Source: Micromonospora luteifusca (GTDB lineage: Bacteria > Actinomycetota > Actinomycetes > Mycobacteriales > Micromonosporaceae). From it: DNA of 64,000 nucleotides. Positions 16,776 through 63,583 of this stretch are shown here, in pieces. Position numbers and translations under genes: made by a program. The notes beneath the pieces are model-generated. The model searched no databases and had not been told where the DNA came from. It saw nothing but the letters and a program-made list of their open reading frames with translations. The number at the start of each line of letters is the position of its first letter. Position 1 is the stretch's first letter. The DNA lies in assembly GCF_016907275.1 (NCBI RefSeq), contig NZ_JAFBBP010000001.1, positions 5,384,001 through 5,448,000 of the forward strand. The letters run 5' to 3'.

Positions 16776-16866
16776 TCGCCCTGCCCCGCGCGGGTACCGC
16801 GTATGGTTTGCCGCCGCGTCACAGGGGAACGGTCGGGGTGACCCTGTCGACACGGAGGAGGACGAG

Positions 16867-17268
16867 ATGCCCGGGCGCGAGGACCTGCCCAGCACGCTGC
16901 GACGCTCCCCGGATAAGGCGCAGCGCACCTGGGAGAAGACACACGACTCGGCGGTCGAGACCTACGGTGAGGGGGAGCGGTCACACCGCACCGCCTTCGC
17001 CGCGGTAAAGCACCAGTTCGAGAAGGTGGGCGACCACTGGGAGCCGAAGGGCCGCAAGGGCCCGAGCGACCAGCAGGCCGCCGGTGGCGGGCCGGAACGG
17101 CGCGCTCCCACCGCCGCTGGAGTGGACGCCAACGCCACCAAGGACCACCTCATGTCGGTGGCCCGCAAACTCGACGTACCCGGCCGGTCCAGCATGACCA
17201 AGCCGGACCTGGTCAAGGCGATCGAGAAGGCCAACGACCGGGCCACCCGCAAGGCTCGCGGGGACTGA
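16867..17268 (+). CDS. ChaB-domain protein with C-terminal Rho-N-like domain
   Basis: This 133-residue basic protein has a ChaB domain at about 1-62 (LPSTLRRSPDKAQRTWEKTH, HRTAFAAVKHQFEKVGDHWE) and a SAP/Rho-N-like helical motif at about 92-128 (ATKDHLMSVARKLDVPGRSS, KPDLVKAIEKAN). It probably binds nucleic acid or acts in stress response. GGAGGAGGACGAG precedes ATG 16867; the much longer open frame upstream is antisense to the YihY gene and is not used. Confidence 0.8.
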   Translation: MPGREDLPSTLRRSPDKAQRTWEKTHDSAVETYGEGERSHRTAFAAVKHQFEKVGDHWEPKGRKGPSDQQAAGGGPERRAPTAAGVDANATKDHLMSVARKLDVPGRSSMTKPDLVKAIEKANDRATRKARGD

Positions 17269-17337: not shown

Positions 17338-18771
17338 TCACCAGTGCCCGCCGCCCGGCGCCTCGATGTGCACCGCCTTTGTGGCCGTGAACTCGTCCAG
17401 CAGTTCCGGGCCGTACCCGAAGCCCTGCCCACTGGCCCCGCGCGGGTGCGCGGCACCGCCCGGCGCGCCCCCGAACACCGCGTTGACCTTGACGGTGCCG
17501 ACCGGCAGCTCCCGCCAGGCCCGCTGCGCGTGAGTCATCGACGCGGTCAACACGGTGGCGGCCAGCCCGTACGGGGAGTCCGCGGCGCAGCGCAGAGCCT
17601 CGTCGAACGAGTCGACCACCACCACCGGCGCGACCGGCCCGAACGTCTCCTCCCGCACCAGCGGCATGTCGTGCCGGCAGTCGGTGACCACCGTGGCCGG
17701 GTAGAACGCTCCCGGGCCGTCCGGGACCTCACCGCCGAGGCGGACCTGGGCGCCGGCCGCCACCGCCGCCGCCACCTGCCCGTGCACGTGGTCCCGGTGC
17801 CGCCGGTCGACCAGCGGGCCCAGCTCGGTGCCGGGGTCCCGGCCCGGCCCGACCCGCAGCGCCCCGGCACGCCGCACCAGGGCGGCGACGAAGTCCTCGG
17901 CCACCGTCCGGTGCACGTAGATCCGCTCCACCGCCACGCAGATCTGCCCAGCGTTGGCGAACGCACCGAGCGCGGCCTGACCGGCCGCCCACTCCGGGTC
18001 GACGCCCGCGTCGACGATCAACGGGTCACTGCCGCCGTTCTCCAGGAGCACCTTCGCGCCGGTGCGGGCCGCGGCGGCGGCGATCGCCCGCCCGGTCGCG
18101 GTGGACCCCACGTGCGCCACGACGTCGACCTCCTGGGCCGCCAGCGCCGCACCGACCTCGGGGCCGCCGGTGAGCAGCGACAACACGCCGGCCGGCAACG
18201 CCTGATCCAGGGCCCTCGCCAGCAGCCAGCCCGTCGCCGGCGTCCGTTCGCTCGGCTTGTAGAGCACCACGTTGCCGGTGACCAGGGCAGCGCCGAGCAG
18301 CCCGCAGGAGACCGCCACCGGGTCGTTCCAGGGCGTGATCGCGGCCACCACACCGCGCGGCTGCGGGGTCAGGAAGTCCAGTGCGTCCGCTTCGCCGTTC
18401 AGTGTCCGCCCGCCGCGTAACGGGGCCAGCTCCGCGTACTGTCGCAGGGTGCCGATACCTGCCTCGACGCCGCCGCGGGCGTCCGCCAACGGCTTGCCCA
18501 TCTCGGCGGTGACGGCCTCCGACAACTCCTCGATGACCGCTTCCACCGCGTCCGCGGCCCGGTGTAGCGCCCCGGCCCGCTCGGCGGGCGCGGTCGCCGC
18601 CCACTGGGCCGCCGCATTGCGTGCCGCCTGGGTCGCCTTGCCGACCTCGTCGGCCGTGGCCACCGGCACCGTGCTGACCGGCGAGTCGTCCGCCGGATCA
18701 CGCACGACCAGTTCGCCACCGTCGCCGCCCGCGCCCCACACTCCGCCCACCAGTTGCGCAACCGTGTACAT
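17338..18771 (-). CDS. NAD(P)-dependent aldehyde dehydrogenase
   Basis: This 477-residue ALDH-superfamily enzyme carries PWNDPVAVSCG, the Rossmann GSTATGRAIAAAA, the catalytic glutamate in LLENGGSDPLIVDAG, the catalytic cysteine in ANAGQICVAVERIYVH and EETFGPVAPV. The Glu loop reads ENGG instead of the usual ELGG. It oxidises an unknown aldehyde, perhaps succinate-semialdehyde or benzaldehyde-like by loop resemblance. ATG 18771 begins the homologous region. It is divergent from the CrtI-like gene. Confidence 0.85.
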   Translation of the reverse strand: MYTVAQLVGGVWGAGGDGGELVVRDPADDSPVSTVPVATADEVGKATQAARNAAAQWAATAPAERAGALHRAADAVEAVIEELSEAVTAEMGKPLADARGGVEAGIGTLRQYAELAPLRGGRTLNGEADALDFLTPQPRGVVAAITPWNDPVAVSCGLLGAALVTGNVVLYKPSERTPATGWLLARALDQALPAGVLSLLTGGPEVGAALAAQEVDVVAHVGSTATGRAIAAAAARTGAKVLLENGGSDPLIVDAGVDPEWAAGQAALGAFANAGQICVAVERIYVHRTVAEDFVAALVRRAGALRVGPGRDPGTELGPLVDRRHRDHVHGQVAAAVAAGAQVRLGGEVPDGPGAFYPATVVTDCRHDMPLVREETFGPVAPVVVVDSFDEALRCAADSPYGLAATVLTASMTHAQRAWRELPVGTVKVNAVFGGAPGGAAHPRGASGQGFGYGPELLDEFTATKAVHIEAPGGGHW

Positions 18772-18808
18772 GCGGTGCTGGATGCCCCGACCTCGGCGCG
18801 GCAAACGC

Positions 18809-18834
18809 GTTTCGCCCGGTTGCGCGCCGGGTAG
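18809..18834 (+). promoter_or_regulatory. SigmaB/SigF-type promoter of the CrtI-like gene
   Basis: GTTTC at 18809-18813, 15 bases, GGGTAG at 18829-18834; the ATG at 18844 follows 9 bases later without a ribosome site, so a leaderless stress transcript is predicted. Confidence 0.5.
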
Positions 18835-18843
18835 GCGGATCGG

Positions 18844-20451
18844 ATGACAACCACCTCCGCGCAGAGCGTGGACGCCGTCATCGTCGGGGCCGGTCACAAC
18901 GGTCTGGTGGCGGCCAACCTGCTGGCCGACGCCGGCTGGGAGGTGGCGGTGCTGGAGGCGACCGCGGTGCCCGGCGGCGCGGTCCGCTCCGCCGAGGTCA
19001 CCGCGCCCGGCTACCTGAGCGACCTCTACAGCTCGTTCTACCCCCTGGGGTACGCCTCACCGGTGCTGGGCAGCCTCGACCTGGGTCGGCACGGATTGTC
19101 CTGGCGGCACGCGCCGGACGTGCTGGCGCACCTGCTGCCCGACGGCCGGTCCGCGGTGATCAACCGGGACCCGGATGTCACAGCCGCCTCACTGGAGCAG
19201 TTCGCCCCCGGTGACGGCAAGCGCTGGCTCAACGCGTACTCCGACTGGCTCGAGGTGGCCGAGCCGATGCTGGAGGCCATCACCTCGCCGTTCCCACCGG
19301 TACGCGGCGGGCTGGGTCTGCTGCGTCGGCTACGCGTGGCCGGCGCGCTGCGACTGGCGCGGCGCCTGGTGGTGCCGGTCCGCAAACTCGGCGACGAACT
19401 CTTCGACGGCGCCGGCGGGCCAGCTCTGCTGGCCGGCTGTGCCCTGCACACCGACCTGTCCCCCGAGGAGGCCGGCTCCGGCGTGTACGGGTGGTTGCTG
19501 GCCATGCTCGGCCAGCAGGTCGGCTGGCCGGTGCCCGACGGCGGCGCGCAGCAGATCACCAACGCGCTGGTGGCGCGGTTGCAGCAGCGCGGCGGAGCGA
19601 TCCTCTACGGCGCCCGCGTCGACCGGGTGCTCACCGCCCGGGGCCGGGCGATGGGGGTACGCACGGAGGGCGGCGCGCTGTGGCGAGCCCGCCGGGCCGT
19701 GCTCGCCGACGTGCCGGCGCCAGCGCTGTACCTCGACCTGGTCGGTGCGGCGGCGCTGCCGTCGAGGCTGGTGGAGGACCTGGCGCACTTCCGGTGGGAC
19801 GGTTCGACGCTGAAGGTGGACTGGGCGCTCTCCGCGCCGGTGCCATGGACGAACCGGGAGCTGGTCGGCGCGGGCACCGTGCACCTCGGCGCGGACCTGA
19901 ACGGGCTCACCCACTACGCGGGTGAGCTGGCCCGTGGCGAGCTGCCCCGTGACCCGTTCCTGCTGGTCGGGCAGATGTCCGTGGCCGATCCGAGCCACTC
20001 CCCGCCGGGGACCGAGTCGCTCTGGTCGTACACCCACCTGCCGTTCCGCCGCACCTGGCGGGCCGAGGACATCGCCGGGCACGTGCAGCGGATGGAGGAC
20101 GTGCTGGAGGCGGCGGCACCGGGTTTCCGGCAACTGATCGTCGGCCGACACGTGGCCGGGCCGGCCGACCTGGAGAAGGGCAACCCGAGCCTCGTCGGCG
20201 GGGCTCTGGGCGGCGGAACCGCCGCCGCGTACCAGCAGCTTTTCCTGCGCCCGATCCCTGGCCTGGGCCGGGCGGACACCCCGGTGGACCGGCTCTTCCT
20301 GGCCAGCTCCTCGGCGCACCCCGGCGGTGGGGTACACGGCGCACCCGGCGCGAACGCCGCCCGCGCGGCGTTGGCCCGCGACCGCGCGCTGACCGGCCGC
20401 GCCTACGCCGCAACCATCGCAACAGCCCACCGCGCCCTCTACCCCAACTAA
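18844..20451 (+). CDS. CrtI-like NAD(P)/FAD-dependent oxidoreductase (phytoene-desaturase family)
   Basis: This 535-residue flavoprotein starts with VDAVIVGAGHNGLVAANLLA (dinucleotide fold, about residues 9-28) followed by EATAVPGGAVRS. The C-terminal FAD motif LFLASSSAHPGGGVHGAPGA lies near residue 480. This is the phytoene dehydrogenase / PYROXD2-like branch. No other carotenoid gene (crtB, crtE) is near, so a desaturase role in carotenoid synthesis is unlikely on context. The last 13 bases, including the stop, form one arm of a large inverted repeat. Confidence 0.8.
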   Translation: MTTTSAQSVDAVIVGAGHNGLVAANLLADAGWEVAVLEATAVPGGAVRSAEVTAPGYLSDLYSSFYPLGYASPVLGSLDLGRHGLSWRHAPDVLAHLLPDGRSAVINRDPDVTAASLEQFAPGDGKRWLNAYSDWLEVAEPMLEAITSPFPPVRGGLGLLRRLRVAGALRLARRLVVPVRKLGDELFDGAGGPALLAGCALHTDLSPEEAGSGVYGWLLAMLGQQVGWPVPDGGAQQITNALVARLQQRGGAILYGARVDRVLTARGRAMGVRTEGGALWRARRAVLADVPAPALYLDLVGAAALPSRLVEDLAHFRWDGSTLKVDWALSAPVPWTNRELVGAGTVHLGADLNGLTHYAGELARGELPRDPFLLVGQMSVADPSHSPPGTESLWSYTHLPFRRTWRAEDIAGHVQRMEDVLEAAAPGFRQLIVGRHVAGPADLEKGNPSLVGGALGGGTAAAYQQLFLRPIPGLGRADTPVDRLFLASSSAHPGGGVHGAPGANAARAALARDRALTGRAYAATIATAHRALYPN

Positions 20452-21577: not shown

Positions 21578-22579
21578 TCAACGTCTGCGGCTGGCCACGG
21601 CGGTGAGGGCGAGCGCCACAGCGGCGAGCGCGACACCGGACAGCGTCGGCTTGTGGGTGCCGACCCAGAGCGCCGCCGACCGGTTACGCGCCTGTTCATG
21701 GAACACGCCCGCCGTGCCCCGGTCTGTGTCCTCATCGACGGGCTGGTCGAGATTGTCCCGCCAGGTGGTCGGATCGATCTCGTCTCCGGTCTGCTGGCTC
21801 TCGTACCCGTCGCGGGCCAGCTTCCGGTCGAGCAGGCCGGGGAACAGGATGTCGGCCAGTCGGGCCTTCCACGTCGGGCCGCCCACGTTCAGCTCCCTGG
21901 TGCCGCGGTCGGCGGCCCACACGATCGCCCGGGCGGCCAGCTCCGGCGTGAAGATCGGCGGGACCGGCTGCGGATGCCGGGGCAGCCGGGTGCGGACCCA
22001 GGAGAACTGTGGTGTGTTCACCGCCGGCAACTGCACCATCGACAGCTTCACCGCCGGGCAGTCGTGCAGCAACTCGGCGCGGAGCGAGTCGTTGAACCCC
22101 TGCACGGCGTGCTTGCTCGCGCAGTACGCCGACTGCAGCGGAATCCCCCGGTAGGCCAACGCGGAGCCGACCTGCACGATCGTGCCCCGCCGGTGCGCCC
22201 GCATGTGCCGCAGCGCCGCCAGGGTGCCGTGCACGGTGCCGAGGTAGGTCACCTCGGTGACCCGCCGGAACTCGCGTGCCGGGATCTCCCAGGCCGGCGC
22301 GAAGACCGACGCCATGGCGTTGTTGACCCACACGTCGATGCGGCCCCAGCGGTGCACCGCGTCGTCGGCGGCCTGCTGCACCGCACCCGCGTCGGCCACG
22401 TCGACCCGGTACACGCGCACGTCGGCGGCGCCGCGCTGCCGGCACTCCCGCTCGGCGGCGGCCAGGCCGGCGTCTCCCCGGGCCAGCAGCGCCAGCCGGG
22501 CGCCCCGCGCCGCGTACGCGTGCGCGACCGCGCGTCCAACGCCAGCGCTCGCGCCCGTCACCACCACGGTCTGCGTCAC
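21578..22579 (-). CDS. Short-chain dehydrogenase with C-terminal membrane anchor
   Basis: This 333-residue classical SDR has TGASAGVGRA (8-17), NNA, the catalytic Ser in GSALAYRG and YCASKHA (Tyr and Lys). The extra 90 C-terminal residues end in one hydrophobic helix (LSGVALAAVALALTAV) and an RRR stop-transfer. Substrate is unknown. Its ATG overlaps the stop of the upstream SRPBCC gene by 4 bases, so the two are translationally coupled. Confidence 0.8.
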   Translation of the reverse strand: MTQTVVVTGASAGVGRAVAHAYAARGARLALLARGDAGLAAAERECRQRGAADVRVYRVDVADAGAVQQAADDAVHRWGRIDVWVNNAMASVFAPAWEIPAREFRRVTEVTYLGTVHGTLAALRHMRAHRRGTIVQVGSALAYRGIPLQSAYCASKHAVQGFNDSLRAELLHDCPAVKLSMVQLPAVNTPQFSWVRTRLPRHPQPVPPIFTPELAARAIVWAADRGTRELNVGGPTWKARLADILFPGLLDRKLARDGYESQQTGDEIDPTTWRDNLDQPVDEDTDRGTAGVFHEQARNRSAALWVGTHKPTLSGVALAAVALALTAVASRRR

Positions 22580-23022
22580 TGCGGCCCCTTCTGCCGGGTG
22601 GCGAAGTCGGCGAGCCGGTCCAGGGTCTCCCGGTTACGCAGGTGCAGCACCAGATCGTTGACCTTGTTGCGGACCCAGCGCAGCGGGCCGGCCGCGAAAT
22701 CCTCCCCGATGCGTACCCGGGTGGCGCCCCCGTCGACCGGCTGCAGCGTGAACGCCACGATCGCCTCGCCGGCCGGCCAGAGACCCGCCTTCAGCACGAG
22801 CCGGTGCGGCGGCTCGCAGACCAGCACGGTCGAGGCGTCCTGCAACGAGAACGGCCACGGCCCGGCCTTGTGGTGCAGTTGGCTGCCCACTCGGGGCCAG
22901 GTGTCGTCCACGTCCCGCACGTGTGTCGTACCCACCACCCAGTCGCTGTACGACCACCCGTCAGCGAGCACGTCGAACACCTGCTGCGGGGGAGCTTGGA
23001 TCACTTTCTCCACAATCGCCAC
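22576..23022 (-). CDS. SRPBCC-fold protein coupled to the SDR
   Basis: The 148-residue helix-grip protein has VEKVIQAPPQQVFDVLADGW at the N-terminus and a C-terminal helix with LHLRNRETLDRLADFA. GTG 23022 is chosen because homology starts there and a possible stress-type promoter with GGGTAT ends 9 bases before it. It is co-transcribed with the membrane-anchored SDR. A lipid or isoprenoid ligand is possible but unproven. Confidence 0.7.
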   Translation of the reverse strand: MAIVEKVIQAPPQQVFDVLADGWSYSDWVVGTTHVRDVDDTWPRVGSQLHHKAGPWPFSLQDASTVLVCEPPHRLVLKAGLWPAGEAIVAFTLQPVDGGATRVRIGEDFAAGPLRWVRNKVNDLVLHLRNRETLDRLADFATRQKGPQ

Positions 23023-23031
23023 TGGGCTTCC

Positions 23032-23056
23032 ATACCCACACCACGACACGGGTAAC
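23032..23056 (-). promoter_or_regulatory. Possible stress-type promoter of the SRPBCC-SDR pair
   Basis: On the minus strand GTTA (23056-23053), 15 bases, GGGTAT (23037-23032). The -10 is exact; the -35 has one mismatch to GTTT. Confidence 0.35.
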
Positions 23057-23174
23057 GGTTTGCGGGTTAGCTTCTCCCGCGCGGCGGGTAAGGCCGGTCC
23101 GGGCACCGCCGGCGCGCTGGCCCACCGCCTCGGTGACGACGTTTACTCCTCGGGGCGCAGGGAACCCGCCGGCT

Positions 23175-24854
23175 GTGCGACAGGACCAGGAGGATCCGTA
23201 TCAGCGCAGGTCAGCCCGGTGGTACGCCGCTGCTGACCGCGCCGGCTCCGGGTCCGTCGGGAGTCCCCGAGGCGTCCTGTACGACGCGGTGTTGCTGGAT
23301 CGCGACGGCACCCTGATCGAGGACGTGCCGTACAACGGCGACCCGGAGAAGGTGCGGCCGGTGCCGGGAGCGCGGGCGGCGCTGGACCGGTTGCGGGCGG
23401 CCGGGCTGCGGCTGGCGGTCGTGACGAACCAGTCGGGCCTGGCCCGCGGTTACTTCACCGGCGAACAGATGAGGGCGGTGCACGCCCGCGTCGAGGAGTT
23501 GCTGGGCCGGTTCGACGCGTGGTTGATCTGCCCGCACGACGACGCGGACGGCTGTGACTGCCGCAAGCCGGCGCCCGGCCTGGTGCACGCCGCCGCCCGG
23601 GAGTTGGGCACGACCGCGTCCAGGTGCGTGCTGGTGGGTGACATCGGCCGCGACGTTGCCGCCGCGTTGGCCGCGGGTGCCGCCGGGGTGCTGGTGCCGA
23701 CCCCGGTGACCCGGCCGGAGGAGGTCGCCGCCGCCGGATGGGTGGCCAGCGACCTGCCGGCGGCGGTGGACGAGATCCTGCGCCGCCAACAGGCCGTGCG
23801 GCCCGCCACCCCGCCCGATGATCCGGTGCGGACAGCGCTGGTGGTCAGGTCGGATTCGGCGGGGGACGTGCTGGTCACCGGGCCGGCGATCCGCGCCGTC
23901 GCGGCCGGAGCGCAGCGGGTGGTGCTGTTGTGTGGGCCGCGTGGCCGTGCCGCCGCCGACCTGCTGCCCGGCGTCGACGAGATCATCGAGTATCCGCTGC
24001 CGTGGATCGACCCCACGCCGGCCCCGGTCGACCCGGAAGTCATGTGGGGCCTGACCGCACGCCTCAGCGCGGTCGGCGCGGACCAGGCGGTGGTGTTCAC
24101 CTCGTTCCACCAGTCCGCCCTGCCCCTGGCGTTGCTGCTGCGAATGGCGGGGATCGGCCGAATCGCGGCGATCAGCGACGACTACCCGGGCTCGCTGCTG
24201 GACATCCGGCACCGGGTGCCGGTGGGCGTTCCCGAACCCGAACGTGCCCTCTCCCTCGCCGCCGCCGCGGGCCACCGACTGCCCGACGGCGACGAACCCG
24301 TTCTCCGGCTGCGCCGCGACGCCATGGCATCGCGTCCAGCCGATCTCGGTGACCCGGGGTACGTGGTGCTGCACCCCGGCTCGGCCGCGTCGAGCCGGGC
24401 CTGCCCGCCCGACCTGGCGGCCCGGATCGCCGGGGCGCTGACCGCTGCCGGGCACCGGGTGCTGGTCACCGGCAGCGCCGACGAGCGTGGGGTCACCGCC
24501 CAGGTCGCGGCGGCCGGCGGCACCGACCTGGGTGGCCGAACCGACCTGGCCGGGCTGGCCGCGATCGTGGCGGACGCCGGCGCGGTCGTGGTCGGCAACA
24601 CCGGGCCCGCGCACCTGGCCGCCGCGTCGGGCGTGCCGGTGGTGAGTCTCTTCGCGCCGACCGTTCCGTTCGGCCAGTGGGGGCCCTACCGGGTGCCCAC
24701 CGTCCGGCTCGGCGACGCCGCCACGCCCTGCCGGGACACCCGCGCAGCCAGCTGCCCGGTCTCCGGGCACCCCTGCCTCAGCGGCATCGACCCGGACGAG
24801 GTGGTCGACGCGCTGCGGACGCTCGCCGTGAGCGGTGGTGGTGGCGGCCGATGA
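23175..24854 (+). CDS. GmhB-like HAD phosphatase fused to a GT9 heptosyltransferase-like domain
   Basis: This is a two-domain protein of about 530-559 residues. The N-terminal HAD-IIIA domain has LLDRDGTLIEDVPYNGDPEK, TNQSGLARG and the zinc loop CPHDDADGCDCRKPAPG, as in D-glycero-manno-heptose-1,7-bisphosphate phosphatase GmhB. The C-terminal domain (about 215-555) is GT-B family 9 (VVRSDSAGDVLVTGPAIRAV, YVVLHPGSAASSRACP, GNTGPAHLAAASGVPVVSLF). GT9 members are ADP-heptose transferases. The start is uncertain: GTG 23175 is the only conventional start before the HAD motif, and a strong AGGAGG lies 12 bases downstream of it. The first gene of the operon. Confidence 0.8.
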   Translation: MRQDQEDPYQRRSARWYAAADRAGSGSVGSPRGVLYDAVLLDRDGTLIEDVPYNGDPEKVRPVPGARAALDRLRAAGLRLAVVTNQSGLARGYFTGEQMRAVHARVEELLGRFDAWLICPHDDADGCDCRKPAPGLVHAAARELGTTASRCVLVGDIGRDVAAALAAGAAGVLVPTPVTRPEEVAAAGWVASDLPAAVDEILRRQQAVRPATPPDDPVRTALVVRSDSAGDVLVTGPAIRAVAAGAQRVVLLCGPRGRAAADLLPGVDEIIEYPLPWIDPTPAPVDPEVMWGLTARLSAVGADQAVVFTSFHQSALPLALLLRMAGIGRIAAISDDYPGSLLDIRHRVPVGVPEPERALSLAAAAGHRLPDGDEPVLRLRRDAMASRPADLGDPGYVVLHPGSAASSRACPPDLAARIAGALTAAGHRVLVTGSADERGVTAQVAAAGGTDLGGRTDLAGLAAIVADAGAVVVGNTGPAHLAAASGVPVVSLFAPTVPFGQWGPYRVPTVRLGDAATPCRDTRAASCPVSGHPCLSGIDPDEVVDALRTLAVSGGGGGR

Positions 24855-25825
24855 ACATCCTGCTCTGGCACGTGCACGGCTCCTGGACCACGTCGTTCGT
24901 GCACGGCAGCCACCGCTACCTGATCCCCACCACACCCGACCGTGGCCCCTACGGCCTCGGCCGGGCCCGCACCTACCCCTGGCCGGAGAGCGCGGTCGAG
25001 GTCAGCCCGGAGGACCTGCCGGGGACCGACGTCGACCTGGTCATCGTGCAACGCCCCGAGGAGATCGACCGGGCCGAGGCGTGGCTGCGTCGCCGGCCCG
25101 GCCGCGACGTCCCCGCCATCTACGTCGAACACAACACACCCAAGGGCGACGTGCCCAACACGCGTCACCCGATGGCCGACCGTGACGACCTGCTCATCGC
25201 CCACGTCACCGGGTTCAACCAGATCTTCTGGGACACCGGCACCTCCCGCACCACAGTGGTCGACCACGGCATCGTCGCACCCTCCGCGTCCTACACCGGC
25301 GAGCTCGACCGGCTCGCCGTGGTGATCAACGAGCCGGTACGACGAGGCCGGGTCACCGGCACCGACCTGCTGCCCCGGTTCGCCGAGATCGCGCCGCTGG
25401 ACGTGTTCGGCATGGGCGTCGCCGGCCTGGCCGACCATCTCGGGCTGCCCGCCGACCGGCTCACCAGCCACGACGACGTACCCCAGGACCGGATGCACGC
25501 CGAGTTGGCCCGGCGGCGTGCGTACCTGCATCTGTGCCGGTGGACCTCGCTCGGGCTCAGTCTCATCGAGGCGATGGCGATCGGTATGCCGGTCGTCGCG
25601 CTCGCCACCACCGAGGCGGTGATGGCGGTGCCGCCGGAGGCGGGGGCCCTCGCCACCCGAACCGACACCCTGCTCGACGCCGCCCGCCGGTTCATCGCCG
25701 AACCGGCGACCGCGCGCCAGGCCGGCGCGGCGGCGCGAACCGCCGCGCGCGACAGGTACGGCCTCGACCGTTTCCTCGCTGACTGGGACCGGCTGCTGGA
25801 GGAGGAAGTATGCGGATCGCGATGA
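24851..25825 (+). CDS. GT-B glycosyltransferase
   Basis: The 324-residue glycosyltransferase starts MNILLWHVHGSWTTSFVHGS; the C-terminal half carries the nucleotide-sugar signature RRRAYLHLCRWTSLGLSLIE followed by AIGMPVVALATTEA. It lacks a membrane segment. The donor could be ADP-heptose or GDP-mannose; the sequence does not decide. Its ATG overlaps the upstream TGA (ATGA), and it overlaps the next gene by 16 bases. Confidence 0.75.
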   Translation: MNILLWHVHGSWTTSFVHGSHRYLIPTTPDRGPYGLGRARTYPWPESAVEVSPEDLPGTDVDLVIVQRPEEIDRAEAWLRRRPGRDVPAIYVEHNTPKGDVPNTRHPMADRDDLLIAHVTGFNQIFWDTGTSRTTVVDHGIVAPSASYTGELDRLAVVINEPVRRGRVTGTDLLPRFAEIAPLDVFGMGVAGLADHLGLPADRLTSHDDVPQDRMHAELARRRAYLHLCRWTSLGLSLIEAMAIGMPVVALATTEAVMAVPPEAGALATRTDTLLDAARRFIAEPATARQAGAAARTAARDRYGLDRFLADWDRLLEEEVCGSR

Positions 25826-27027
25826 TCTCGGAGCACGCCAGCCCGCTCGCCGTCCTCGGAGGGGAGGACGCCGGCGGCCAGAACACGCACGTCGCGGAGC
25901 TGTCCGCCGCGCTCGCCGCCGCTGGGCACGAGGTGCGGGTCTACACCCGCCGGGACGCGCTCGACCTGCCGGTGACCGTCCGCAGCCCGGACGGGTACGA
26001 CGTGGTGCATGTGCCGGCCGGCCCGGCCGAGCCGGTGGCGAAGGACGCGCTGTTGCCGCACATGCGGGAGTTCAGTCGGTGGTTGATCGAGCGGTGGCGG
26101 GGCGGGGACTGGGTGCCCGAGGTGATCCACGCGCATTTCTGGATGAGTGGTCTGGCGGCGCTGACGGCCGGCCGGCAGACCGGGGTGCCGGTGGTGCAGA
26201 CGTATCACGCGCTGGGCACGGTGAAGCGTCGCTACCAGGGCGTGCAGGACACCAGCCCGGCTCGGCGGGTGTCCTACGAGCGGGAGTTGGGCCGCTCGGT
26301 GGACCGGATCGTCGCGCAGTGCCGCGACGAGGTGGGCGAGCTGGTCCGGATGGGTGTGCCGCGGTCCCGGATGACCGTCGTGCCGTCCGGAGTGAACCTC
26401 GCCACGTTCGCCCCGCTCGGGCCGGCCGCTGACCGCGAACCGGGTCGGGCCCGGATCCTGACCGTGGGCCGGCTGGTCGAACGCAAGGGCTTCCAGACCG
26501 TGATCCGCGCGATGGAGCTGGTCCCGGACGCCGAGTGCGTGGTGGTCGGCGGCCCACCCGAGGGGCTGCTGGAGACCGACCCGTACGCCCGGCGGCTGCG
26601 GGCTCTCGCGGAGTCGTGCGGGGTCGCCGACCGGGTGCACCTGGTCGGCGCGGTACCCCGCGAGGAGATGGGCCGCTGGTACCGCTCGGCGGACCTGCTG
26701 GTCGCCGCGCCCTGGTACGAACCGTTCGGGTTGACCCCGCTGGAGGCGATGGCCTGCGGGGTGCCGGTGGTCGGCACCGCAGTCGGCGGCATCCGGGACA
26801 CCGTGGTCGACGGGACGACCGGTGACCTGGTGCCGGCACGGGACCCGCACGCGCTGGCCACCGCCATCCAGGGGCTGCTCGACGACCGGATCAGGCGCTT
26901 CGCGTACGCCGCGGCGGCGCGCGAGCGGGCCCGGGCGCGGTACTCGTGGGCGGCCACCGCGGAGCGGCTGGTCGAGGTCTACAGCGAGGTGGCTGCCGTG
27001 CGCCGGCCGGCCCGGGTGGTGGCCTGA
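25810..27027 (+). CDS. Glycosyltransferase family 4
   Basis: The 405-residue GT4 enzyme begins MRIAMISEHASPL with GGEDAGGQNTHVAELSAALA (glycine-rich acceptor loop). It has PSGVNLATFAP, TVGRLVERKGFQTVIRAMEL and the donor-binding EPFGLTPLEAMACGVPVVG. This branch includes sucrose-phosphate-synthase-like and MshA-like enzymes. Located between a GT and GmhA in one operon, it probably acts on the same glycan. GGAGGAGG lies just before the ATG, inside the preceding gene. Confidence 0.8.
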   Translation: MRIAMISEHASPLAVLGGEDAGGQNTHVAELSAALAAAGHEVRVYTRRDALDLPVTVRSPDGYDVVHVPAGPAEPVAKDALLPHMREFSRWLIERWRGGDWVPEVIHAHFWMSGLAALTAGRQTGVPVVQTYHALGTVKRRYQGVQDTSPARRVSYERELGRSVDRIVAQCRDEVGELVRMGVPRSRMTVVPSGVNLATFAPLGPAADREPGRARILTVGRLVERKGFQTVIRAMELVPDAECVVVGGPPEGLLETDPYARRLRALAESCGVADRVHLVGAVPREEMGRWYRSADLLVAAPWYEPFGLTPLEAMACGVPVVGTAVGGIRDTVVDGTTGDLVPARDPHALATAIQGLLDDRIRRFAYAAAARERARARYSWAATAERLVEVYSEVAAVRRPARVVA

Positions 27028-27728
27028 TGCCGGCGGGCAGTCTGCTCGACACCCACCTGACGAATCTCGCCGCCGCGCTGGTGCCGTACCGGGGGTGTGA
27101 GTCGCAGCTGGCGCGCTGGGGTGCGGATCTGGCCCGCCGGCTGGCCGCCGGGGGTCGCCTGCTGGTCGCCGGCAACGGTGGCAGCGCCGCCGAGGCCCAG
27201 CATCTCACCGCCGAGTTGGTCGGCAAGCTTCACGACGACCGTCAGCCGCTGTCGGCGATCGCGCTGCACGCCGAGACGAGCGCGCTCACCGCCATCGCCA
27301 ACGACTACGGCTACACCGAGGTCTACGCCCGACAGGTGCGCGCACACGGTCGCCCCGGCGACGTTCTGCTGCTGCTCAGCACCAGCGGTACCAGCCCCAA
27401 TCTGGTCAGCGCCGCGCAGGCCGCCCGCGACGTCGGCGTGACGACGTGGGCGCTCACCGGCGCCGCCCCCAATCCCCTCGCCGACGCCTGCGACGACGTG
27501 CTGGCCGTCGCGTCCCCGGACACCCAGGTCGTCCAGGAGCTGCACCTGGTGACCAGTCACCTGCTCTGCGAGTACCTCGAACAAGAGCTGGCCGCGCCCA
27601 GCGACCCGGCGGTTCGCCACCGCGTGCCGGAGGAGCCCACGCCCGCTGGTCAGCTCCCGTCCGGGCCGGTGCGCGCCGGGGTCGAAGTGGTGCTCGACGG
27701 TGGGACCGGACAGCAGGTCGACGCGTGA
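27027..27728 (+). CDS. gmhA: Sedoheptulose-7-phosphate isomerase (SIS domain)
   Basis: The 233-residue protein has one SIS fold with VAGNGGSAAEAQHLTAELVG (about 47-66), LSTSGTSPNLVSAA and QVVQELHLVTSHLLCEYLE carrying the conserved Gln/Glu and His residues of GmhA. It converts sedoheptulose 7-phosphate to D-glycero-D-manno-heptose 7-phosphate, the first step of ADP-heptose synthesis. A 35-residue C-terminal extension is extra relative to enterobacterial GmhA. Start and upstream stop share one base (TGATG). Confidence 0.85.
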   Translation: MPAGSLLDTHLTNLAAALVPYRGCESQLARWGADLARRLAAGGRLLVAGNGGSAAEAQHLTAELVGKLHDDRQPLSAIALHAETSALTAIANDYGYTEVYARQVRAHGRPGDVLLLLSTSGTSPNLVSAAQAARDVGVTTWALTGAAPNPLADACDDVLAVASPDTQVVQELHLVTSHLLCEYLEQELAAPSDPAVRHRVPEEPTPAGQLPSGPVRAGVEVVLDGGTGQQVDA

Positions 27729-27744
27729 CGACGGGGAGGCAAGC

Positions 27745-29214
27745 GTGAGGGGACCTGTGGTGGTGCTCGGGGACACCCTGCTCGACCGGGACGTGGAAGG
27801 GGTGGTGAACCGGCTCTGCCCGGACTCGCCGGTGCCGGTCCTCGACGAGACCGCGGCCAGCGACCGACCCGGTGGCGCAGGTCTGGCGGCGGTGTTCGCT
27901 GCCGCGCAGGGCGCTGACGTGGTGCTGGTGACCGCGCTCGCCGACGACGCCGGCGGGGCCCGACTGAGCGCGCTGCTCGCCGCGGCCGGAGTGCAGGTGT
28001 ACCCACTGGCCCTGTCCGGTGCGACGCCGGAGAAGATCCGGCTGCGGGCCCGGGGTCGGGTGCTGCTGCGCCACGACCGCGGCGGCACCTCCGGGGAGCC
28101 GGGTCAGCCCTCCGACGAGGTGCTCAGGGTGATCGGCTCGGCGTCCGCGGTGCTGGTCAGCGACTACGGCCGGGGCGTGGCCCGGCAGCCCGCACTGCGC
28201 GACGCGTTGGCCGCCACCCGCGCCCCGGTGGTGTGGGACCCACACCCGCGCGGCCCGGCGGCGGTCCCCGGCGTACATCTGGCCACCCCGAACGAGTCGG
28301 AGGTGCGCGAGCTGGTCCCCGCACTGCCCGGTGCCTCCCGGCTGGCCACCGCGTCGCGCGGCGCGCAGGGCCTACGGCGGCGCTGGCGGGCGGGTGCCGT
28401 CGCGGTGACGCTGGGCGGGGACGGTGCACTGCTCTGCCACGCCGGGTCGACACCGCTGGTGGTGCCGACACCGGGCAGCGCCGAGGGGGACACCTGCGGG
28501 GCCGGCGACCGGTTCGCGGCCGCCGCCAGCCTCGCGTTGGCCCAGGGCGCGCTGGTCTCCGAGGCGGTGCAGGCGGCGGTCGCCGAGGCGTCCGCGTACG
28601 TGGCGGGTGGGGGAGTGGCGGCGGCGCTGCCATCGAGCGCGAGGAGTGAGTCGTTGATGCGAGCCCCGCAATCGCAGACGAAGGGCGGCCGAATGTCGAC
28701 AAGCGTCGTCGGCCCGGGGGGTGAACGGGTGGGAGTGGCCGCGGTTGCCACGCTCCTCGGCGAGGTACGGGCCGCAGGCGGCACGGTGGTGGCGACCGGG
28801 GGTTGCTTCGACCTGCTGCACGCCGGGCACGTGGCGACCCTGCAGGCCGCCCGGCAGCTCGGCGACTGCCTGATCGTCTGCGTGAACTCCGACGCCAGCG
28901 TGGCCGGGCTGAAGGGGCCGGATCGGCCGGTGATGTCCGAGGGTGACCGCAGCCGGCTGCTGGCCGCGTTGAGCTGTGTCGACGCGGTCCTCATCTTCGA
29001 CGAGCCGACCCCGGAGGCGGCGCTGTCCTGGGTGCGACCGGACATCTGGGTCAAGGGCGGCGACTACGCCACCGGCGGTGGCGATGCCAACGTAACGCTG
29101 CCGGAGGCGGCGGTCCTGCGGCGGTGGGGCGGTAACACGGTGGTGGTGCCCTACCTGGACGGCCGTTCCACCACCGACATGATCGTTCGCTCCGTCGGGG
29201 AGCGGACCCGATGA
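27745..29214 (+). CDS. hldE: Bifunctional heptose-7-phosphate kinase / heptose-1-phosphate adenylyltransferase
   Basis: The 489-residue protein has a PfkB kinase domain (about 1-300; GDTLLDRDVEG, GGAGLAAVFAAAQGADV, GDTCGAGDRFAAAA with the catalytic Asp) and a cytidylyltransferase-like domain (about 345-489; VATGGCFDLLHAGHVATLQAAR, then VCVNSDASV). This is the HldE fusion, making heptose-1,7-bisphosphate and later ADP-heptose, with GmhB acting between. The GTG at 27745 follows GGGAGGC. The approximately 40-residue linker contains an internal ATG (28692) that could start a separate adenylyltransferase. Confidence 0.9.
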   Translation: MRGPVVVLGDTLLDRDVEGVVNRLCPDSPVPVLDETAASDRPGGAGLAAVFAAAQGADVVLVTALADDAGGARLSALLAAAGVQVYPLALSGATPEKIRLRARGRVLLRHDRGGTSGEPGQPSDEVLRVIGSASAVLVSDYGRGVARQPALRDALAATRAPVVWDPHPRGPAAVPGVHLATPNESEVRELVPALPGASRLATASRGAQGLRRRWRAGAVAVTLGGDGALLCHAGSTPLVVPTPGSAEGDTCGAGDRFAAAASLALAQGALVSEAVQAAVAEASAYVAGGGVAAALPSSARSESLMRAPQSQTKGGRMSTSVVGPGGERVGVAAVATLLGEVRAAGGTVVATGGCFDLLHAGHVATLQAARQLGDCLIVCVNSDASVAGLKGPDRPVMSEGDRSRLLAALSCVDAVLIFDEPTPEAALSWVRPDIWVKGGDYATGGGDANVTLPEAAVLRRWGGNTVVVPYLDGRSTTDMIVRSVGERTR

Positions 29215-29912
29215 CCGCCACGCGGTCCGGCGCCGGACCCACCGTCCTGGTCACCGGCGGCGCCAGCGGGCTCGGTGCCGCGGTGGTCGCCGCGGTGGCC
29301 GCCTCCGGCGGTCGCCCGGTCGTGCTGGACCGGCAGCCGCCGGCCGACGGGGTGTCCTGGACCGAGTGCGACCTGGCCGACACCCGGGCGGCCGAGGTGG
29401 CCACCCAGCATCTCGCCGAGCAGTCCGGTGGCCTGGACGCGGTGGTCACCGCCGCCGGCACCGACGTCCCGGGGCGACTCGGCGACGTGCCGGGGGAGAC
29501 CTGGGACCGCATCGTCGCCGTCGACCTGCTGGCCACCGCGGCGGTGATCCGGGCCGCGCTGCCGTTCCTGCTGACGTCTCGGGGCCGCATCGTCACGGTC
29601 GCCTCGACCCTGGGTGTCAAGGCGGTCAGTGACGCGACGGCGTACTGCGCGGCGAAGTTCGGTGTGGTCGGCTTCACTCGCGCCCTCGCCGCCGAGCTCG
29701 CTGGTCAGGTCGGCGTCACGCTGCTCATCCCGGGCGGTATGCGCACCGCGTTCTTCGACGAGCGCGACCCGCAGTACAAGCCGGGGGCGGACGCGATCCT
29801 CAACGATCCCGCCCACACCGCCGCCGCGATCATGTTCGCGCTCAACCAGCCCGCCGGTTGCGCGGTGCGGGAGATGGTGGTCTGCGCCGAGCAGGAGACC
29901 TCGTACCCGTGA
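29211..29912 (+). CDS. Short-chain dehydrogenase in the heptose operon
   Basis: The 233-residue classical SDR has TGGASGLGAA (12-21), the Ser in VASTLGVKAV and YCAAKFG (Tyr, Lys). It is shorter than, and differently organised from, the extended-SDR epimerase HldD, so it should not be called HldD. A 6-epimerase role by another route, or modification of a sugar, is possible. Overlaps at both ends (ATGA with hldE, GTGA with the next gene) place it firmly in the operon. Confidence 0.75.
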   Translation: MTATRSGAGPTVLVTGGASGLGAAVVAAVAASGGRPVVLDRQPPADGVSWTECDLADTRAAEVATQHLAEQSGGLDAVVTAAGTDVPGRLGDVPGETWDRIVAVDLLATAAVIRAALPFLLTSRGRIVTVASTLGVKAVSDATAYCAAKFGVVGFTRALAAELAGQVGVTLLIPGGMRTAFFDERDPQYKPGADAILNDPAHTAAAIMFALNQPAGCAVREMVVCAEQETSYP

Positions 29913-30862
29913 TCCTCGTCCTGCGCGCCCTCGGCGTCGGCGACCTGGTCACCGCGGTGCCCGCGCTGCGGGCGCTGCGGGCCGCGTACCCCGGTCGGGA
30001 GCTGGGGCTCGCCGCGCCCGCCTGGCTTGCCCCGCTGGTGGACCTGGTCGGTGGCGTCGACCGGCTGGTCGACACCGCCGGGCTGGATCGGCCCCTGCGG
30101 GTCGGTTCGGCCCCACCGGTCGCGGTCAACCTGCACGGGCGCGGCCCGCAGTCGCACCGGTTGCTCGCCGCCACCCGGCCCGGCCGGCTGCTCGCCTTCG
30201 CCAACCCGGAGGCCGGCTGCACCGACGGCCCCCGGTGGGCCGCCGACGAGCACGAGGTGGACCGGTGGTGCCGGCTGCTGTCCTGGTACGACATTCCGGC
30301 CGACCGCACCGACCTCGGCCTGCGTCGGCCCGGTCCGACCGGGCTGCCGACCGGGGCCACCGTGCTGCACCCCGGCAGCAGGATCCCCGCCAAGCGCTGG
30401 CCCGCCGAGCGGTTCGCCGCGCTGGCCCGGGCGCTCACCGAACGGGGGCACCGGGTGCTGCTCACCGGCTCGGCCGACGAGCGGGCGCTGGCGGCCCGGG
30501 TGGCGGACGCGGCCGGCCTGGCATCCGACTCCGTGCTGGCCGGCCGGACCGACCTCGGCGCGCTCGCGGCGCTGGTGGCCGATGCCCGGCTGGTGGTCAG
30601 CGGGGACACCGGGGTGGCCCATCTGGCCACCGGGTACGGCACCGCGTCGGTCGTCCTCTTCGGGCCGGTGCCGCCCGCGCAGTGGGGGCCGCCGCCGGAC
30701 CGGCCCCGACACCGGGTGCTCTGGGCCGGCGAGGGCGATTGGCCCGGGTGGGACGGGGTAGGAAGTCACCCGACGATGGCGGCTCTGCGCCTCGACGAGG
30801 TGCTGGCCGCGGTGGCCGAGGTGGAGAGGGTGGTGCGGGTCTCCGGTGCGGTTGCGGCGTAG
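29909..30862 (+). CDS. GT9 heptosyltransferase-like glycosyltransferase
   Basis: This 317-residue GT-B protein starts ILVLRALGVGDLVTAVPALR and carries TVLHPGSRIPAKRWPAERFA, LLTGSADE and VSGDTGVAHLATGYGTASV, the GT9 donor site. It is similar in layout to the C-terminal half of the GmhB fusion, so the operon encodes two GT9 domains. Probable ADP-heptose transfer to an envelope glycan. GTG 29909 overlaps the upstream stop by 4 bases; the 3' end overlaps topoisomerase IB by 17 bases. Confidence 0.85.
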   Translation: MILVLRALGVGDLVTAVPALRALRAAYPGRELGLAAPAWLAPLVDLVGGVDRLVDTAGLDRPLRVGSAPPVAVNLHGRGPQSHRLLAATRPGRLLAFANPEAGCTDGPRWAADEHEVDRWCRLLSWYDIPADRTDLGLRRPGPTGLPTGATVLHPGSRIPAKRWPAERFAALARALTERGHRVLLTGSADERALAARVADAAGLASDSVLAGRTDLGALAALVADARLVVSGDTGVAHLATGYGTASVVLFGPVPPAQWGPPPDRPRHRVLWAGEGDWPGWDGVGSHPTMAALRLDEVLAAVAEVERVVRVSGAVAA

Positions 30863-31829
30863 CGACCCGGGTGGACCGGGGTACGGACGGCGTCGGCGCG
30901 GACGGGGCTGGCTCTTCGTCGACCCGACCGGCGCTCCGGTCCGGGATCCGGACGTCCTGGCCCGGTTGCGGGAGCTGGTCATCCCTCCGGCCTGGCAGAA
31001 CGTCTGGATCTCGCCGTACCCGAACGGGCACATCCAGGCGATCGGAATCGACGCGGCCGGTCGTAAGCAGTACGTCTACCACCCGCTGTGGCGGGAGAAG
31101 CAGGACGAGGCGAAGTTCGACCACATGCTGGAGGTGGCCCGGCGGCTCCCGGTGCTGCGGGAGCGGGTGGGGCGTGACCTGGACGGCCGAGGGCTGGGCC
31201 GGGACCGGGTGCTGGCCACGGTGGCTCGACTGTTGGACATGGGGATGTTCCGGGTCGGCAGCGACCAGTACGCGGCCGGCGACGACCCGACGTACGGGGT
31301 GTCGACCCTGCGTCCCGAGCACGCCCGGTCCCGGCGCGGCTGCGTGGTCTTCGTGTTTCCGGCGAAGGGTGGCATCGAGCAGGTACGCCGGATCGAGGAC
31401 CCGGAGCTGTGCCAGGTGCTGGTCAATCTGCGCCGTCGTCGGCGCTGGGCGGACCGGCTGTTCGGCTACTGGGACGGTCGGGAGTGGCGTGATGTGCGCA
31501 GCGACGAGGTCAACGGGTACCTGCGCGACGCCAGCGGTGGGGAGATGACCGCCAAGGACTTCCGTACCTGGCACGCCACAGTCCTCGCCGCCACCGAATT
31601 GGCCACCGTCGGCCCGGCCCGTTCGGTGACGGCCCGGCGCAAGGCGGTGGTCGCGGTGATGCGTGAGGTGGCCGAGCTGCTGGGCAACACTCCGACGGTG
31701 GCTCGTGCGTCGTACGTTGATCCGCGGGTGGTCGACCTGTACCACGACGGGGTGGTGGCGTCGGTGGACCCGCGGGCGTCACGCGAGGAGGCCGAGCGGC
31801 TGGTCCTGGAGTTGCTGGAGAAGGCTTGA
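30846..31829 (+). CDS. DNA topoisomerase IB (poxvirus-like)
   Basis: This 327-residue enzyme has the N-terminal IPPAWQNVWISPYPNGHIQA and IDAAGRKQYVYHPLWR. Its catalytic core contains KDFRTWHATVLAA and the nucleophile Tyr in ASYVDPRVVDLY. It relaxes supercoils by transient 3'-phosphotyrosyl cleavage. The GTG start lies inside the preceding GT9 gene, so it is cotranscribed although functionally unrelated. Length matches the bacterial topo IB family. Confidence 0.9.
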   Translation: MRLRRSDPGGPGYGRRRRGRGWLFVDPTGAPVRDPDVLARLRELVIPPAWQNVWISPYPNGHIQAIGIDAAGRKQYVYHPLWREKQDEAKFDHMLEVARRLPVLRERVGRDLDGRGLGRDRVLATVARLLDMGMFRVGSDQYAAGDDPTYGVSTLRPEHARSRRGCVVFVFPAKGGIEQVRRIEDPELCQVLVNLRRRRRWADRLFGYWDGREWRDVRSDEVNGYLRDASGGEMTAKDFRTWHATVLAATELATVGPARSVTARRKAVVAVMREVAELLGNTPTVARASYVDPRVVDLYHDGVVASVDPRASREEAERLVLELLEKA

Positions 31830-61725: not shown

Positions 61726-61974
61726 GGGGCGCACCTCCCTCAGCCGGTGGTGGTGGCGACCGCCGCGCGACGGGAAGCGGCCCGGGGCGAGTGCGCGGCG
61801 ATATCCTCCGGTGGTCTGCTGCACAGCGGGAACGGGACGGGCGGACGGGTGAGCTGGCTCACCTCCCGGCTCGATCTCACACCCGTTGCCGGGTAGGCAC
61901 AAGCCTCTCCCGGGCGGGTCGGCGGTACCGTCCGTATCGCCGGAGCTGGGCCGACCGTTATCGTGGGGACCGCC

Positions 61975-62604
61975 ATGGCGAAGATCTTCCAAGTGTCGGC
62001 CCGCGCGGGGATGACCCGCGTCGTCGAGCCGATTGCCCGCGCCCTGCTGCGCGCGGGCGTCACCCCCAATGCCGTCACCGTTGCGGGCACCGTTGGTGTG
62101 CTCGTCGGTGCGCTCGGCTTCGGTGCCCGCGGCCATCTGGTCGCGGGCGCGTTAATCGTTACCGTTTTCGCGCTCACCGACCTGCTCGACGGGACGATGG
62201 CCCGGATGAGCGGCGGCTCCACCAGGTTCGGCGCGTTCCTCGACTCAAGCATGGACCGGGTCGCCGACAGCGCCGTCTTCGGCGCGGTCGCGTACTGGCT
62301 GGCCACGCAGGGCAACCACTCCGGGGTGGCCGCCGCGTTGGTCTGCCTGGCCGCCGGCAGCCTGGTCTCCTACGTGAAGGCCCGCGCCGAGGGGCTGGGC
62401 ATGACCTGCAACGTGGGCATCGCCGAGCGCACCGAGCGGCTGCTGATCGTCGGGGTCGGCGGCATCCTCACCGGCCTGAACGTGAAGCCGGCGCTGGAGA
62501 TCGCGCTCTGGCTGCTCGCCGCGGTGTCGATCTTCACGGTGGGGCAGCGGATGGCGCACGTCTACCGCCAGGCCCAGCAGCTCCAGCCGGACCGTCAGGC
62601 GTGA
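61975..62604 (+). CDS. pgsA: CDP-alcohol phosphatidyltransferase, probable phosphatidylinositol-phosphate synthase
   Basis: The 209-residue enzyme has the CDP-OH-P motif D-x2-D-G-x2-A-R-x8-G-x3-D-x3-D in DLLDGTMARMSGGSTRFG, then AFLDSSMD, and about six membrane segments. Together with the acyltransferase and pimA next to it, it makes the phosphatidylinositol-phosphate that is dephosphorylated and mannosylated to PIMs. TATCGT 10 bases before the ATG gives a very short leader. Divergent from EF-G2 across 249 bases. Confidence 0.85.
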   Translation: MAKIFQVSARAGMTRVVEPIARALLRAGVTPNAVTVAGTVGVLVGALGFGARGHLVAGALIVTVFALTDLLDGTMARMSGGSTRFGAFLDSSMDRVADSAVFGAVAYWLATQGNHSGVAAALVCLAAGSLVSYVKARAEGLGMTCNVGIAERTERLLIVGVGGILTGLNVKPALEIALWLLAAVSIFTVGQRMAHVYRQAQQLQPDRQA

Positions 62605-62654
62605 GCGGCGTGTCGACGGCCCGGCACCGGCCGACCGGCGGCCGGGCCGCGTGA
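62601..62654 (+). CDS. 17-residue mini-ORF linking pgsA to the acyltransferase
   Basis: A GTG at 62601 overlaps the pgsA stop as GTGA, and its own stop overlaps the next GTG (62651) as GTGA. The peptide MSGVSTARHRPTGGRAA is basic and disordered. It most likely passes ribosomes from one gene to the next; a function as peptide is not claimed. Confidence 0.35.
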   Translation: MSGVSTARHRPTGGRAA

Positions 62655-63583
62655 ACCTCACCGAGCTCGGCTACGTCGCGGGCTGGCGGGTGGTCCGCGC
62701 GCTACCCCGGCCGCTGGTGGCGGCGGCGTTCCAGGTGGGCGCGGACCGCGCCCACCGCCGCGCCGGCGGGGGTACGGCCCGACTGCGCGCGAACCTGCGC
62801 CGGGTGGTCGGCCCGGAGCTGCCCGAGGCCGAGCTGGACGATCTCGTCAAGCGCGGGCTCCGCTCGTACGCCCGGTACTGGATGGAGGCGTTCCGGCTGC
62901 CCGCGTTGAGTCGGGCGCAGATCCTGTCCGGCTTCCGACTCGACGGCGCCGAGCTGCTCGCCGCCGACGTGGCCGCGGGCCGGGGCGCCGTGGTGGCCCT
63001 TCCCCATGCCGGCAACTACGACGCCGCGGGCGCCTGGGTGGCGGCCACCGGCTGGCCGATCACCACGGTGATGGAACGGCTCAAGCCGGAGGGCGTGTAC
63101 AAGCGTTTCGTGGCCTTCCGGGGGAGCGTGGGCATGGAGATCCTGCCGACCCACGGCGGGCCGCGTCCGGCGTTCGACGTGTTGCTGGACCGGCTCCGGG
63201 CCGGTGCGGTGGTGCCGCTGCTGGCCGACCGCGACCTCTCCGCCCGGGGGGTGGAGGTGGACTTCTTCGGCGGGAAGACCCGCATGCCGGCCGGGCCCGC
63301 ACTGCTGGCGCTGCACACCGGAGCGCCGCTCTACGTGGCCTCGATGTGGTACGAACCGGACGCCGCGTGCGCGTCGCTCGCCGGCCCGTTGCCGGTGCCG
63401 GGGCCCGAGGTGGGGCCTCTGGACCAGCGGGTCCGGTCGCTGACCCAGCTGATCGCCGACCGTCTGGCGGCGGGCATCGCCCGGCATCCGGAAGACTGGC
63501 ACATGTTGCAGCGGATGTGGCTGGACCAGCGGAGGGCGGGGGACGGCACAGCGCTGCCCTCGTCGGCCTCCGGTCAGGCCTGA
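62651..63583 (+). CDS. Phosphatidylinositol mannoside acyltransferase
   Basis: The 310-residue LPLAT/HtrB-like enzyme has VALPHAGNYDAAGAWVAATG (the catalytic HxxxxD is HAGNYD), PTHGGPRPAFDVLLDRLRAG and PLLADRDLSARGVEVDFFGG. It corresponds to the PatA-type acyltransferase that acylates the 6-position of the mannose on PIM, on the cytoplasmic face of the membrane. GTG start; it overlaps the preceding mini-ORF. Confidence 0.9.
   Translation: MNLTELGYVAGWRVVRALPRPLVAAAFQVGADRAHRRAGGGTARLRANLRRVVGPELPEAELDDLVKRGLRSYARYWMEAFRLPALSRAQILSGFRLDGAELLAADVAAGRGAVVALPHAGNYDAAGAWVAATGWPITTVMERLKPEGVYKRFVAFRGSVGMEILPTHGGPRPAFDVLLDRLRAGAVVPLLADRDLSARGVEVDFFGGKTRMPAGPALLALHTGAPLYVASMWYEPDAACASLAGPLPVPGPEVGPLDQRVRSLTQLIADRLAAGIARHPEDWHMLQRMWLDQRRAGDGTALPSSASGQA

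Follow-up and report, generated by a model that had tools for sequence, protein, structure and literature searches.

In the window, the 64,000 nucleotides of Micromonospora luteifusca contig NZ_JAFBBP010000001.1 from position 5,384,001 to 5,448,000, seven closely packed genes on the + strand (23175-30862; coordinates of the open reading frames (ORFs) and start codons were checked) form an operon predicted to make and transfer a nucleoside diphosphate (NDP)-heptose. The operon is probably a reduced, Micromonospora-type relative of the cwg operon of Streptomyces coelicolor; its product would be a short oligosaccharide that contains heptose, and its expression would be under control of general stress. 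Genes, gene order, domains, conserved motifs and a conserved promoter-like element were read directly from the DNA. The original prediction, an earlier note made from the same letters, had described seven genes of heptose synthesis and transfer; families, strand and coordinates were right, and the assignment to NDP-heptose synthesis and transfer is supported at the level of sequence.

The lead gene (23175..24854, GTG start, 559 aa) encodes a GmhB-like HAD phosphatase fused to a GT9 domain (GT9a). It is followed by a GT-B glycosyltransferase of GT4-like fold (GTB1, 24851..25825) and a GT4 glycosyltransferase (25810..27027), for which the cwgF and cwgG positions, respectively, are proposed; a predicted sedoheptulose-7-phosphate isomerase GmhA (27027..27728); a predicted HldE (27745..29214), in which heptose-7-phosphate kinase and heptose-1-phosphate nucleotidyltransferase are combined and a GRSTT motif is found; a short-chain dehydrogenase/reductase (SDR) oxidoreductase (29211..29912); and a second GT9 (GT9b, 29909..30862), all on the + strand. 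Neighbouring genes overlap by 1-16 nt, the GmhA-HldE junction excepted, where a 16-nt gap is left with the HldE start at GTG 27745 that is implied by a 489-aa database copy.

Homologues of GmhA, HldE and GmhB with their active-site motifs were found for the ADP-heptose pathway (TIGR00441 gmhA, 4e-47; PRK11316 HldE, 1.1e-73; PRK08942 GmhB, 9.9e-37); none of the heptose proteins reached its NCBIfam equivalog cut-off, and they are thus divergent family members. Their PDB relatives are phosphoheptose isomerases, a heptose-7-phosphate kinase, heptose-1,7-bisphosphate phosphatases and heptosyltransferases. The zinc-loop motif CPHDDADGCDCRKP of the HAD domain aligns with solved GmhB; HxxxE and QExH of GmhA, which presumably have a metal role, align with solved enzymes; the nucleotidyltransferase domain of HldE matches 3glv, named lipopolysaccharide core biosynthesis protein. 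HldE carries YLDGRSTT at its end, with the Arg of GRSTT present and Tyr as first residue instead of the F/L in the hallmark (F/L)XXGRSTT of the promiscuous heptose nucleotidyltransferase STTR5 (accessible text of PMC11573728 and PMC11461863); the Arg was found in 62 of 83 proteins, these being the ones caught by the motif pattern in 89 loci. In the source genome used for comparisons (7,163,903 bases, single contig) no HldD was found over the cut-off (best 116.8 bits, cut-off 274.6), so a D-glycero-D-manno nucleotide sugar is likely; LpxC had no match in the genome, which makes lipopolysaccharide (LPS) unlikely as acceptor and agrees with the earlier view that the host should lack it.

The two GT9 domains match PF01075 at 4.1e-28 and 4.2e-20. 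In GT9b the donor-site motifs AKRWP and DTG..H are as in solved GT9 enzymes; in the fused GT9, R and N are invariant in 15/15 aligned sequences, at positions taken as equivalent. GTB1 is 59% identical to its counterpart in the Streptomyces locus L138 (below); its model (mean predicted local distance difference test, pLDDT, 87.2) gave, among the Foldseek matches listed, TarM, sucrose-phosphate synthase, PimB', BshA and WaaG at 10-16% identity, and the acceptor is not deducible from structure because these matches spread over many retaining GT-B enzymes. For GT4 the top NCBIfam match was MshA (247 bits, cut-off 462.5), and Tll1590 (sucrose-phosphate synthase) was the best PDB match, followed by 3c4q/3c48.

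Conservation was followed in a named-genome set (the best 80 of 583 confirmed stretches, weighted to near relatives), an order-level set (8 loci of the same order but outside the family) and a phylum sample (296 genomes, 198 genera). All six core genes (GT9a, GTB1, GT4, gmhA, hldE, GT9b) were present in 73/80 named and 6/8 order-level loci; seven named loci are incomplete, five of them (L067, L087, L097, L119, L134) being truncated at a contig end. With the core set recurring at this frequency the operon is real and above chance, and the proposal that it be sought in other actinobacterial genomes was borne out. Core gene order was largely common to the loci compared; the SDR oxidoreductase had its best-matching gene in 68/80 named loci. 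The fusion was found in 36/36 congeners (E <= 1.1e-35) and in 8/24 other order members (E <= 1e-80), and the lead GT9 (E <= 1e-60) in 30/296 genomes and 22/198 genera phylum-wide, own genome counted. By name, the closest relatives belong to Micromonospora, led by M. arborensis with 96% identity in the fused GT9 domain, and Micromonospora names were those visible among the best 120 matches listed in the protein searches. Some congeners (G022, G026, G033, G035) hold two fusion copies on one contig; of the two copies of M. mirobrigensis, L069 has a carbamoyltransferase and L068 was not among the carbamoyltransferase loci.

The HAD domain changes its partner: of 89 loci, window included, 62 join it to GT9 and 21 to GT2; 4 have it unfused, and in 2 it was not detected. 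Since the pathway is kept, this partner switching suggests that phosphatase and transferases work together; a GmhB domain with changing fusion partner appears to be new here.

Fuller versions of the locus contain a NodU/CmcH-type carbamoyltransferase (36/80 named, 6/8 order-level loci), GT2 (43/80 and 7/8), an NDP-sugar epimerase/dehydratase (16/80 and 4/8) and UDP-glucose dehydrogenase (6/80 and 3/8). One of them is L138, a twelve-gene cwg-type cluster on a plasmid of Streptomyces sp. CA-256286, typed mobilizable (NZ_CP071045.1 44021-69514), with the order epimerase-carbamoyltransferase-GT2-HAD-GT9-GT-GT4-SIS-HldE-GT9-GT2-GT2; among the relatives of its carbamoyltransferase with solved structures are the O-carbamoyltransferases TobZ and GdmN. 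Seven of its genes correspond to window domains at 45-59% identity, and GmhA, HldE, the HAD phosphatase, two GT9 and two further GT-B genes stand in conserved order in both. The loci together suggest a conserved core, made up of heptose supply and four transferase domains, with a carbamoyl/epimerase module in part of the loci only and with differing promoter types. L138 is surrounded by stress-type genes (CBS, ANTAR, PP2C, STAS, CsbD and a SigB/F/G sigma factor), and a CBS-domain gene flanks L131. Polysaccharide pyruvyl transferase genes were seen near two cwg-type clusters (L050:6176-7051, L138:23019-23990), a hint of a surface glycan.

The cwg operon was reportedly the subject of a study by Hong et al. 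in 2002, which PMC6767563 and PMC5839063 cite. In the accessible parts of the papers cited here and below, it is given as SCO6179-6190 (cwgA-L, twelve genes, 'putative cell wall glycan'), partly sigma-E dependent and vancomycin induced (PMC6767563); cwgA was up with salt, sigE not being up-regulated (PMC13011467); cwgB, C, G and J are annotated as 'transferases', cwgD as 'dehydratase', cwgE (5th) as putative heptosyltransferase, cwgH (8th) as phosphoheptose isomerase and cwgI (9th) as bifunctional enzyme (PMC5839063, PMC5882110). Both cwg and L138 have twelve genes, and the positions of the annotated cwgE, cwgH and cwgI agree. By way of L138 and of these annotated positions, the window operon would share with cwg the heptose isomerase, an HldE-like enzyme, a putative heptosyltransferase and further transferases; it differs in having seven genes, not the complete twelve-gene set, a fused HAD-GT9, an SDR and a SigB-type, not a sigma-E-type, promoter. 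The original prediction, which held ADP-heptose pathways of Gram-positives to be known mainly from antibiotics, had overlooked this operon. No cwg product is named in the accessible parts of the cwg literature found, and no direct literature evidence for envelope heptose in actinobacteria was found, in a search that left most subscription papers outside.

Isomerase, kinase, phosphatase, nucleotidyltransferase and GT9 families are also common to the window and the Gram-negative ADP-heptose pathway with WaaC-WaaF; unlike the makers of an LPS core, the host is without LpxC and without HldD over the cut-off, and lipid A-Kdo should not be the acceptor. The Pseudomonas inner core, with WapO and 7-O-carbamoyl-heptose (PMC8005017), combines GT9 with a carbamoyltransferase as do the fuller cwg-type clusters.

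A SigB/SigF-type promoter-like element, GTTTAC-N13-GGGAAC (23141..23165, + strand), lies 9 nt before GTG 23175, and the mRNA of the fusion is probably leaderless. The element matches the SigB-family pattern (-35 GTTT/GNNT, spacer 12-14, -10 GGGWAN) as a predicted promoter and fits the Bacillus subtilis SigB consensus GTTTAA-N12-14-GGG(A/T)A(A/T) (PMC8346170) apart from a final C in both hexamers. Micromonospora-type loci, when aligned, show conservation in the DNA preceding the fusion gene; the element (spacer 12-14) was found in 37/81 sequences. Both the element and a HAD start were recognised in 36 loci, and in 35 of these the start codon that follows leads into the HAD domain in frame, with no intervening stop. 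Element spacing and reading frame thus lend separate support to GTG 23175 as the likely start. With the pattern narrowed to GTTTACTCC-N10-GGGAAC, the 7.16 Mb genome yields a single match. The genome encodes three sigma factors that score as SigB/F/G over the cut-off, one ca. 7 kb before the window; in the window a ChaB gene (16867-17268) has a similar GTTT...GGGAAC element 37 nt upstream, element and gene being covered by 16805-17268. As a conserved feature of these operons the SigB-type promoter-like element seems to be new here.

Carbamoyltransferase-led operons have GNNT-N14-16-GGGTAB 34-36 nt before the start codon in 25/41 cases (L055 left out, start not found); the control, with the pattern anywhere within 60 nt, gave 63/683 other starts. 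All 25 positive loci are, we take it, Micromonosporaceae and so cannot be counted as independent, even with their differing spacers. Less stringent SigB-type matches were present in three order-level loci (L049, L053, L054).

Other control elements were tried and rejected. A sigma-E promoter (AAC ... GTC) was absent within 420 nt upstream in the window; the pattern occurs in 12/77 sequences, seven near relatives sharing one ca. 300 nt upstream, and the window has the divergent gene 22576-23022 at the corresponding site. At carbamoyltransferase starts it was found 4 times in 42 (2.5 expected), and another sigma-E form at 2/95 operon starts (controls 11/667). For a structured RNA leader no Rfam family was found at gathering level (two matches far below, E 0.11 and 0.76); it was rejected because conservation there is better accounted for by the reading frame. 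Two further blocks were seen: in Micromonospora, TAAC...GGGTTAGC and GGGTAA are conserved at 23050-23095, upstream of the SigB-like element, as a possible operator or second promoter; and a conserved CCGTAGTGTTT block, unlike the SigB and sigma-E patterns searched, stands before the GT2-HAD gene of the non-Micromonospora loci L118, L121, L122, L124, L128, L135 and L052 (Modestobacter, Blastococcus and Goekera among them).

Several points weigh against a cwg-type heptose operon under SigB-family control. The match of cwg to L138 rests on gene number and annotated positions (cwgB-E, G-J), and the cwgD slot is insecure because 'dehydratase', taken here as the HAD gene, could also be an epimerase/dehydratase; the epimerase, the carbamoyltransferase and the three GT2 of L138 are all missing from the window locus, and no hit to PF02543 turned up in the genome. 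In the fused GT9, N and R stand, by eye, where D and K are found in the second GT9 and WaaF, and its donor may for this reason not be ADP-heptose. GmhA has AAEAQ (Glu for Asp) vs AADAQ in two solved enzymes, and the nearest PDB entry to the nucleotidyltransferase domain of HldE is a 'putative cytidylyltransferase' (5x9q). As to the promoter, the strict pattern G[TG]TT-N14-16-GGGTAY showed no enrichment (5/95 operon starts, 43/667 controls); the looser one, at 38/95 operon starts and 62/667 controls, was chosen after the alignments had been viewed, and most of its positives come from related loci within a single family. Fisher values for these comparisons take no account of relatedness and are not counted as proof.

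A second heptose locus, apparently new here, was found elsewhere in the genome (L007:7680-12509, genome 3667680-3672509), beside a DJ-1/PfpI gene: a + strand run DUF2231-Hsp20-GT9, the GT9 being canonical, lies opposite GT2-HldE, the HldE having 605 aa, and a promoter-like element GTTT-N16-GGGTAC is found 109 nt before the run. Its GT9 (genome 3668701-3669810; E <= 1e-60) is in 36/36 congeners and 1/24 other order members; the arrangement was kept in all 11 congener loci checked (of 36). Neither GmhA nor GmhB had a match among 20 scanned ORFs of the 20-kb L007 stretch, so that L007 may rely on the window operon for precursors, a possible dependence only, since PF13580 also picks out further SIS proteins in the genome. 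A two-locus general-stress heptosylation, in which the cwg-type operon would supply heptose-7-phosphate and phosphatase and build the oligosaccharide, L007 would draw on the operon, and both would be switched by the SigB family, is tentative and rather doubtful; with both loci so switched, heptose would be a stress-induced modification in an LPS-free bacterium.

Downstream, a topoisomerase IB gene (30846-31829) shares 17 nt with the last GT9 gene, and such a gene is present in 39/80 named loci. An aldehyde dehydrogenase and a CrtO-like FAD oxidoreductase (17338-20451) adjoin the operon and recur by many Micromonospora-type copies. A gene like polyprenol-phosphomannose synthase (Ppm) also adjoins it (best PDB match dolichol monophosphate mannose synthase, 7.3e-31), and genes for phosphatidylinositol phosphate synthase and an acyltransferase of phosphatidylinositol mannosides (PIM) lie at 61963-63583, ca. 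31 kb downstream, as had been noted before.

From these neighbours it had been suggested that heptose goes onto a lipoglycan, teichoic-like or capsule polymer. The cell-envelope direction of that proposal is favoured by the cwg-type relatives; the Ppm/PIM link is weak because the Ppm neighbour is lineage-specific (33/80 named, 0/8 order-level loci). Heptose built onto a PIM/lipomannan-type lipoglycan or other polyprenol-linked polymer is therefore considered unlikely, even with the up-regulation of cwgE in an S. coelicolor ppm1 mutant (PMC5882110) and the pyruvyl transferase genes near L050 and L138 added to the Ppm and PIM genes; no flippase, polymerase, ligase or lipid-carrier gene was recognised among the conserved neighbours annotated, several of those seen in three to six loci lacking annotation. 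Sucrose-phosphate synthase and MshA, to which GT4 is nearest, act on sugar or cyclitol phosphates. This likeness, the general-stress type of the promoter, the stress genes around L138, the CBS-domain gene at L131 and the lack of a recognised export gene would suit a product other than a surface glycan: either a soluble heptose oligosaccharide induced by stress, as osmolyte or protectant, or a small-molecule conjugate in the cytoplasm; four transferase domains, with carbamoylation in relatives, however look elaborate for an osmolyte, and cwg is part of an envelope-stress regulon in S. coelicolor according to the accessible accounts, so that such a product, too, is held to be rather unlikely.

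Transfer of heptose by the GT9 enzymes directly to stress proteins or others is improbable: ADP-heptose is known to serve in the heptosylation of autotransporters (PMC11461863), and the L007 GT9 shares a run with Hsp20 behind a SigB-like element, opposite HldE, but the Hsp20 link is one of genomic proximity only and several different transferases, as in the window operon, are typical of an oligosaccharide. A sugar cassette for a secondary metabolite is very improbable. Septacidin and hygromycin B attest ADP-heptose made in actinomycetes (PMC10221265), which is the likeness to the window; in bleomycin, blmC-blmG (sugar synthase, carbamoyltransferase, transferase, epimerase; sugars mannose and gulose; PMC7017467) resemble the cwg-type clusters in their list of functions, as compared by description, and one short Streptomyces plasmid version lies beside an MFS transporter and a P450. 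Against it, no scaffold-building gene was found among the neighbours scanned, in accord with the earlier remark that no antibiotic gene is near; the gene set is conserved across many genera, and the fusion gene across all 36 congeners.

For the preferred reading, a reduced cwg relative, we infer substrates, order of transfer, an envelope location of the glycan, identity of the sigma factor and cwg membership as follows. The HldE kinase would give the 1,7-bisphosphate, the GmhB domain of the fusion would remove the 7-phosphate, and the HldE nucleotidyltransferase would form ADP-D,D-heptose (possibly CDP- and UDP-heptose too); the D,D form would be used directly, with no epimerisation, because no HldD was found. 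The canonical GT9 would transfer heptose onto a short oligosaccharide, and other or further residues would be attached to this by GTB1, GT4 and the divergent fused GT9; a sigma factor of the SigB family, responding to general or osmotic stress, would drive expression. The comparison makes direct tests possible in culturable actinomycetes; if the reading is true, heptose metabolites, the class sensed by ALPK1, would be regular products of Gram-positive bacteria in the environment.

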